32,750 nt of DNA from an uncultured Microcaldota archaeon (GTDB lineage: Archaea > Micrarchaeota > Micrarchaeia > Norongarragalinales > Norongarragalinaceae), in contig CAITNU010000026.1 of the NCBI GenBank assembly GCA_903893865.1, forward strand, positions 1 through 32,750. Reading direction: 5' to 3'. This document shows, piece by piece, positions 4,847 to 25,882 of the stretch. The notes under the pieces were generated by a model, which did not search any database, had not been told where the DNA came from, and was given only the letters and a program-made list of their open reading frames with translations. The position numbers were made by a program, and so were the translations under genes. Each line of letters begins with the position of its first letter. Positions within the stretch are counted from its first letter, which is position 1.

Positions 4847-4874
4847 AAAGCCGTGAAGCAATATTTTAGTCCGC

Positions 4875-5042
4875 GCGGGGGTCGCCTAGTGGCTATGGCG
4901 GCAGCCTGCTATACGCGTTTTTCTTTGAAAAAACGCTGGTGGTAAGCTGTTAGCGCATTTCGCGCTGCGCGGGTTCGAAAGCACTTTTTTGCCTGCGGGC
5001 AAAAACCTGCGCTAAAAAGTGCCGAACGTCCCGCTCCCCGCG
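4875..5042 (+). tRNA. tRNA-Ser(GCU) with two introns: 4912..4944 (37/38) and 4980..5028 (59/60)
   Basis: Acceptor GCGGGGG(4875-4881)/TCCCCGC(5035-5041), discriminator G; 3-bp D stem GCC/GGC; anticodon stem GCAGC(4901-4905)/GCTGT(4946-4950); loop CTGCTA|A; variable arm AGCGC-ATTTC-GCGCT; T stem GCGGG(4969-4973)/CCCGC(5030-5034); T loop TTCGAA|T. Spliced 86-nt product folds as a class II serine tRNA. Confidence 0.9.
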
Positions 5043-5061
5043 CTTTTTTCTCAAACCCAGC

Positions 5062-6597
5062 TCAAGCGGAGCTTTCCAGCTGCTCTAATCTTTTTGTTAT
5101 TAGTCTAAGCCTTTTTTGAAGAGCTTCGCGATCAGTTGTTGGCGGAAAGCTCACTCCCATTCGGGGAAGAGAAACTTTTCGCAGCAGTTCTTTCAATTCC
5201 GTATCGCGCAGATTAGGCAGTCCGCCTCTAATCTTGGCTTGCTGAATGGCTATGTAATAGCCGGGCTTGCCCGACTCCTTAAATTGTTTCGCAAGCAGAG
5301 GGCGGCCAAGTTTCTTGTGAGTCGTCCTAACGAACTTCAGGATTTCAAGAATTTTTTTGCGGCTCCTAGGAGGTTTAACGTACGGATCGGGTTTTTTTAG
5401 AATGTCTAGAGCGTATAGCTCCTGCAACAAGCCTCGTCTGATAACATGACTTTGCAAACCGGGAGATAATTGTTTGAATAAAACGCGTTTGTCGCCCGTA
5501 AACTCCGTGATTCGTTTAATAACTTCTTCTTTGGAAAACGGCGGGACGCTCTTGTGACCTGAAGTTTTACTGGCTTTGTAAAGCGAAAGCACCACGCCGT
5601 GTTTTGTTTCTAAGCTCGGCTTTTCTTTTAGGACGCGCAAGTAGATTTTTGCGGCCGCACGCCTAGCCAAAAACAATTCAGACGCAATCTCGTTCAACCG
5701 CTCGTGAGAACCGCCGAAGTAGGGGGATAAACGCAAAGACAAAAACGCTGCCTCAGATCCGTGTTTTTGCGAAATTTCTTTAAAAACGCGTTGCTGGCTT
5801 TCCGTTAGATGCGGAAGGTTTTCGTAAAGCAGTTTTGCATAAAACTTGTCGGCAAATTCGGGCGGCGGCCGCGAAACTGGATCCTCTTTTTTTAATAGTT
5901 CTTTGAAGTAGGGTAGGCTTTGGTTTTCTATTTGTCTTAATCGTTCTCTTGTAAACCCCAAATCAGCTGCAATCTTTTTTCGAGGCTCATTAAGCAGTAT
6001 TCGTCTTATCGGCACGCTTGACGTTATATTGATGTTTTGTGGATTATTCGGGGGATATCGCTTTCCCAACTTATCCCAAATTCTTCGGTATGCGGCGGTT
6101 ACGTCGATGATATTCTGCGCGTAGGCCGGTGTTCGTCTGTCAGAAGCCAGCACACTTGAGGGTTTAAGAAAACCATTACCGAGTTCATCATAATAAGGCA
6201 AATTATTCGTGTTTATGCTTTGTCGGAGGTACTTTTGGTTCATAGATTGCAACCAACGAGAAAAAGTTGCATTAAACATGTCCTGTAAACTGCCTGGCTG
6301 ACTCTTTTTGGAAACAAGTTTTTTGGGGTCGAAAACGCGAAGAGTTTTATTAAAAGCATCGGGAACAATTTCCGGATGCTTGGAATGGATATAGCCTTTC
6401 ACGCGTCTTGACGATAGGTAAAAAGCCAGCGGGCGGTAAACGCGAAACAACTGTTTGGCTTTTTGCTTGAAACGAGGTGGTTGCGAGGCCAAAGGCACGC
6501 CGGGAACTCTTTCCATGAGTGTTTCGCACAACGCCTTCTCTTGGAGCAGTTTCAAGTGGCCATTGGGTTTCTGCGCGGTTTGAGCGATTTCTTTCAT
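5062..6597 (-). CDS. sigma-70-like protein (region 2-like and region 4-like segments) with extended C-terminal region
   Basis: LNEPRKKIAADLGFTRERLRQIENQSLPYFKELL closely matches sigma-70 region 4.2 (TRERxRQIE...AL.KL); YRPLAFYLSSRRVKGYIHS...DAFNKTLRVFDPKK...FSRWLQSMNQKYLRQ resembles region 2. Confidence 0.7.
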   Translation of the reverse strand: MKEIAQTAQKPNGHLKLLQEKALCETLMERVPGVPLASQPPRFKQKAKQLFRVYRPLAFYLSSRRVKGYIHSKHPEIVPDAFNKTLRVFDPKKLVSKKSQPGSLQDMFNATFSRWLQSMNQKYLRQSINTNNLPYYDELGNGFLKPSSVLASDRRTPAYAQNIIDVTAAYRRIWDKLGKRYPPNNPQNINITSSVPIRRILLNEPRKKIAADLGFTRERLRQIENQSLPYFKELLKKEDPVSRPPPEFADKFYAKLLYENLPHLTESQQRVFKEISQKHGSEAAFLSLRLSPYFGGSHERLNEIASELFLARRAAAKIYLRVLKEKPSLETKHGVVLSLYKASKTSGHKSVPPFSKEEVIKRITEFTGDKRVLFKQLSPGLQSHVIRRGLLQELYALDILKKPDPYVKPPRSRKKILEILKFVRTTHKKLGRPLLAKQFKESGKPGYYIAIQQAKIRGGLPNLRDTELKELLRKVSLPRMGVSFPPTTDREALQKRLRLITKRLEQLESSA

Positions 6598-6717: not shown

Positions 6718-6792
6718 GGGCTCGTAGCTCAGCCTGGATAGAGCGATTGCCTCCTAAGCAAGAGGTCGGGGGTTCGAATCCCCCCGAGCCCG
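6718..6792 (+). tRNA. tRNA-Arg(CCU), no intron
   Basis: GGGCTCG TA GCTC AGCCTGGATA GAGC G ATTGC CTCCTAA GCAAG AGGTC GGGGG TTCGAAT CCCCC CGAGCCC G; cloverleaf intact apart from A27/G43. Confidence 0.95.
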
Positions 6793-6911
6793 CTTCAATT
6801 CCTTTTGCGCATTTCGAACGTTCCGCGCATTCCTCACTCTTTTTAATGCGAAAAGCGTTACTACGCGTTACTGAAGAAAAAGCACTAACCCACTGAATCG
6901 AGGGACCTGAC

Positions 6912-25297: not shown

Positions 25298-25882
25298 CTA
25301 GCGCCTAGAAACGGGTTTGCCTAAATTGCCTTTTGCTTCAAGAGCCTTAAAGAGCCTAGACTGCCAAGGTGGTTTTCCCGATATTCCATACGCCGCCCAG
25401 AAATCGGTTACAACATTTACTTTTTGGAAATGGTTTGTTAACTTCTTGCGGAACTCGCTGAGACGATAAAAATCCTTTATGGATTCCGACCTACCTTCCT
25501 TTGCAGACCTTAAACGGCCAAAGGCATAACGGCACACTGCACCCAAAGCAGGTTCTCCGCCCGTTCTTCGTTCATCATCGATTTCCTTTTCAAATTTGGT
25601 TATGTCATTTTCCCATCTATTTATCCAGTGTTCTGATTCATACATTCCGTTTTCAGTGACTTTTAAAACATCGCCTATTGTTTTGCACTTTTCTAGATAT
25701 TCTGAAAAAGGGCGATATTCCTTCTCTAATTTGAGACTAACACCAGAGGCGCCTGTTTTTTCAGCCGTCTTTTTAATTACAGTCAAATGCTCTGGTTTGA
25801 GTTGCAGTTTTAAGAGTTGTTGGGGTATGCGCCTAGTGGAAAGGGTTTTGACAGCAATAGTCCGACGAACGTTCATGTGCAA
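25298..25882 (-). CDS. hypothetical protein
   Basis: 194-aa ORF, lower-GC composition than neighbours; no family recognised. Confidence 0.5.
   Translation of the reverse strand: MHMNVRRTIAVKTLSTRRIPQQLLKLQLKPEHLTVIKKTAEKTGASGVSLKLEKEYRPFSEYLEKCKTIGDVLKVTENGMYESEHWINRWENDITKFEKEIDDERRTGGEPALGAVCRYAFGRLRSAKEGRSESIKDFYRLSEFRKKLTNHFQKVNVVTDFWAAYGISGKPPWQSRLFKALEAKGNLGKPVSRR

Follow-up and report, generated by a model that had tools for sequence, protein, structure and literature searches.

Sigma-70 factors in DPANN archaea were described in 2021, mostly from Woesearchaeota and with mis-binning excluded (Castelle et al. 2021, PMC8204110), and we found no later study of them in the literature searched. 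DPANN sigma factors as such are therefore not new, and the premise of a preliminary description of the present locus, that archaea lack sigma factors, fails for DPANN in view of that report and of the recurrence of such proteins across the phylum considered here. Our subject, P0001, is encoded in the window (the whole stretch of 32,750 nucleotides that was analyzed) from an uncultured Micrarchaeota archaeon. Like the DPANN family fam00359 (PMC8204110), it is a sigma-type protein in a DPANN archaeon that is not mis-binned; fam00359 proteins are classed as sigma-70, whereas P0001, in a comparison made by description only, has part of the sigma signature. With region 4.2 of RpoS and SigA (PF04545) it has in common the same helix-turn-helix and the same TRERxRQIE recognition helix, but it is without detectable region 4.1 and region 2 and carries 265 extra residues at its C terminus. 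It shares its phylum and a region-4.2-type helix with Micrarchaeota proteins that combine sigma2 and sigma4 (for example, L057, L059, L067, and L091), yet these have a clear region 2, often also region 3, and no full-length similarity to P0001. ECF sigma factors such as SigW and SigE offer a two-domain layout without region 3, which has been proposed for P0001 as well; here region 2 is unsupported in P0001, and the helix-turn-helix is nearer to that of RpoS and SigA than to that of ECF factors.

Across the phylum, 35 of 301 genomes have Sigma70_r2 above the Pfam cut-off, as against none of four archaeal control genomes. The order to which the P0001 genome belongs is represented by 28 other genomes, and 11 of these (counted from our table) have Sigma70_r2 over the cut-off; one of these same-order matches (G003), whose contig is 3 kb long, may represent contamination. 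The sigma gene of L082 stands about 3.5 kb from that of the archaeal resolvase Hjc on a long contig with archaeal genes, and a 136-kb contig (G017:C15) has, besides its sigma gene, a gene homologous to that of the P-type ATPase in the window. Intact sigma factors occur in the phylum, as do sigma4 proteins without detectable region 2 (L016 and L116).

Other sigma proteins of the phylum have been rearranged. Two array proteins from the same genus, for which there was a single weak phage match, consist of 1010 aa with about eight region-4 modules and region 2 too (L082:5059-8091 in G067:C30; Sigma70_r4 80.7 bits) and of 993 aa with about six region-4 modules (L116:4730-7708 in G048:C21; 80.5 bits). 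Repeats of the HNH_repeat type are fused to sigma region 2 and/or 4 in L066:571-1896, L069:7337-9031, L076:6609-8345, and L092:4592-5749, scoring above the Pfam cut-off in L066 and L069 and below it in L076 and L092. Sigma-like genes also occur in tandem, two or three together, in L063, L068, L069, L082, and L094. The lineage retains many rearranged sigma proteins in the form of region-4 arrays and HNH-repeat fusions, and this material, which lies outside the window, is more striking than what the window holds.

The P0001 reading frame is a real coding gene. It runs for 511 codons from an ATG at 6597 on the minus strand (open frame, 513 codons), whereas no more than 188 open codons arose when its 1536 bp were shuffled 300 times, and its GC content by codon position (0.52, 0.39, and 0.46) follows the pattern of coding DNA. 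Both the frame and the peptides quoted from it in the preliminary description are borne out. The features of the locus are collected in the table.

Table. Features of the P0001 locus, in window coordinates
Feature	Coordinates	Strand	Basis or remark
Orphan protein P0001, 511 aa	5062..6597	-	pI 10.3, GC3 0.457
Possible, unproven region-2-like helices, residues 43-128 (YRPLAFYLSS ... HPEIVPDAFNKTLRVFDP ... FSRWLQSMNQKYLRQ)	6214..6471	-	near-chance profile scores
Sigma70 region-4.2-type helix-turn-helix, residues 207-237 (KKIAADLGFTRERLRQIENQSLPYFKELLKK)	5887..5979	-	profiles and PDB matches
Possible second, interrupted region-4-like helix-turn-helix, residues 255-325	5623..5835	-	weak sigma4 score
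SAP-like motif, residues 462-497	5107..5214	-	Pfam SAP (PF02037) E 0.0044, 17.1 bits vs cut-off 23.9
tRNA-Arg (CCT)	6718..6793	+	divergent neighbour, upstream of P0001 gene
Candidate tRNA gene, with one intron in the anticodon loop and one in the T arm	4873..5043	+	sequence and fold

The contig that bears P0001 is clearly archaeal, as had been supposed: it encodes a proteasome subunit, FttA, OapC, Lon-like proteases, and a P-type ATPase, and the nearest FttA homologues in named genomes are nearly all from Candidatus Micrarchaeota, at 64-74% identity. The GC content dips across the P0001 gene, whose GC3 compares with values of mostly 0.6-0.7 in its neighbours, a few others being about equally low. 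A further low-GC frame of the window (25298-25882, GC3 0.39) is without a Pfam match. The dip is what an assembly chimera or bacterial contamination might produce, but we consider either highly improbable, as both flanks belong to one archaeal contig with the genes just named, two separate joins would be needed to make a chimera, and searches of bacteria, phages, and plasmids yielded no source matching P0001. The low GC3 suggests an accessory or acquired gene. P0001 is flanked by the tRNA-Arg gene and by the candidate intron-bearing tRNA gene, which lies about 20 bp past the P0001 stop codon and was missed by both ARAGORN and Rfam; low GC together with this position between two tRNA genes fits an acquired origin. 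No mobile-element gene was recognized among the neighbours examined. The flanking regions examined in relatives do not repeat the window's gene order around the P-type ATPase and so revealed no empty site.

The sigma signal in P0001 is confined to about 31 residues, the only ones that can be aligned, and within them it goes well beyond chance. A profile built from 17 sigma proteins of the phylum matches P0001 with an E-value of 1.8e-6 as its sole match among the 181 frames of the window, the second-best frame reaching 0.35. Residues 191-245 reach 22.9 bits with a sigma4 profile, for which the best of 3000 shuffles has 9.0; the alignment covers profile positions 36-66 of 67, that is, the 4.2 half only, and the profile does not detect region 4.1 helices ahead of the helix-turn-helix. 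Weak matches came from Pfam Sigma70_r4 (E 0.019, below the Pfam cut-off), from the RpoS model TIGR02394 (E 0.006), and from PHROGs (a sigma match, E 0.14), and PADLOC gave no match. When the 57-residue stretch 189-245 was searched against the PDB, sigma factors made up 21 of the 26 matches, headed by RpoS and SigA with E-values from 0.015 upwards, and KKIAADLGFTRERLRQIENQSL of P0001 aligned with EEVGAYFGVTRERIRQIENKAL of SigA. The TRERxRQIE recognition helix is unchanged, retaining the residues with which this helix of sigma70 contacts the -35 element. The region 4.2 signature reported earlier is accordingly well founded. Alternatively, a general helix-turn-helix of an unrelated DNA-binding protein could have come to resemble region 4.2 by chance or convergence, as might be argued from the lack of homologues, the mere 31 matching residues, and a Pfam score under the cut-off. 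We hold this to be quite unlikely, however, given a profile score far beyond the shuffles and PDB matches that are specifically to sigma rather than to other helix-turn-helix families.

Searches with tblastn, HMMER, and back-translated patterns covered 85,462 prokaryote genomes, the phylum's 301 genomes, and phage, plasmid, and viral-contig collections; they revealed no homologues of P0001, such matches as arose being due to chance only or to the common helix. Two Micrarchaeota sigma proteins used as queries also found nothing in viral contigs. Because P0001 has no homologues, there is no conservation pattern to draw on.

Region 2, with which sigma factors bind the core polymerase and recognize the -10 element, is where the preliminary description went too far. 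It had described a resemblance to this region "in order and spacing" upstream of the 4.2 signature, but across a mixed profile and an ECF-only profile, applied to several segments of P0001, scores are about 0 bits and 4-12% of shuffles are as good (170/3000, 359/3000, 218/5000, 229/5000, and 286/5000 matching or beating P0001). Two whole-sigma profiles give negative scores on residues 31-140, Sigma70_r2 has no match in P0001's own genome, and the DLVQE-type motif of region 2.2 is not retained. With region 2 near chance level, the name "sigma-70-like protein" is too strong, since region 4.2 alone is supported. A region 2 could nevertheless exist in P0001 and have diverged past detection.

In its fullest version, that possibility makes P0001 an ECF-like sigma factor that has diverged very far and would dock on the archaeal RNA polymerase at its clamp, with region 2 at residues 43-128, region 4 at 207-237, and a 70-residue linker. 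The order of helices and the layout without region 3 are as this would have them, and the phylum contains intact sigma factors. Structure prediction had been proposed as a check. A single-sequence AlphaFold run yielded no usable model (pLDDT 39.8), and Foldseek on this poor model returned no sigma matches. When residues 31-245 were modelled with an alignment of nine viral ECF sigma sequences, mean pLDDT was 58, with about 55-74 in the region-2 helices, and nearly all Foldseek matches were sigma factors, including region 2 of sigmaE (2map; TM-score by target 0.56, rmsd 3.2), although every E-value was 0.02 or worse. Because the alignment was picked as sigma and draws the model towards that fold, the guided model indicates compatibility with sigma and is not proof. 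Together with the near-chance region-2 scores and the lost DLVQE-type motif, these results leave an ECF-like factor a conceivable but doubtful reading.

The C-terminal 265 residues, put at about 250 and called unexplained in the preliminary description, give weak hints only of a second sigma4-like stretch and a SAP-like motif. Residues 246-330 score 6.6 bits with the sigma4 profile, a value reached or exceeded by eight of 3000 shuffles for one among four stretches tested; the signal is noteworthy because the phylum has other proteins with several region-4 modules. An HNH_repeat (PF18780) at residues 418-451 was rejected at 13.4 bits (cut-off 26), 482 of 3000 shuffles being as good with a repeat profile built from the sigma fusions of the phylum. 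The zinc ribbon and cyclin repeats of TFB have no Pfam match in P0001.

On balance, we think that P0001 is probably an orphan, lineage-specific, sigma-derived DNA-binding protein with a regulatory or accessory-element role, and not a complete initiation factor. Of the options raised earlier, we still prefer that of a regulator which binds DNA and re-uses the sigma fold, given the 4.2 helix and a region 2 near chance. P0001 would be a basic, mostly helical protein with a sigma70 region-4.2 helix-turn-helix at its core, presumably derived from the sigma-factor-like genes scattered across the phylum. Judging from the sequence of the 4.2-type helix, it may bind DNA, probably at -35-like (TTGAC) sequences, and the remainder may have diverged from sigma region 2 or never have been such. 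It would then regulate transcription or serve an accessory element; this role is favoured over full bacterial-type initiation because the part of a sigma factor that holds the polymerase was not found in P0001. That it acts as a diverged sigma-type factor in cooperation with the archaeal RNA polymerase, or directs the polymerase to -35-like sites beside TBP/TFB, seems to us unlikely.

If sigma-type proteins do function in archaea, one polymerase would be the meeting point of bacterial and archaeal initiation factors, and the divergence of both initiation systems would become testable. P0001 is a weak example in this regard, and better test cases are offered by the sigma proteins, both intact and rearranged, that other members of the phylum carry.
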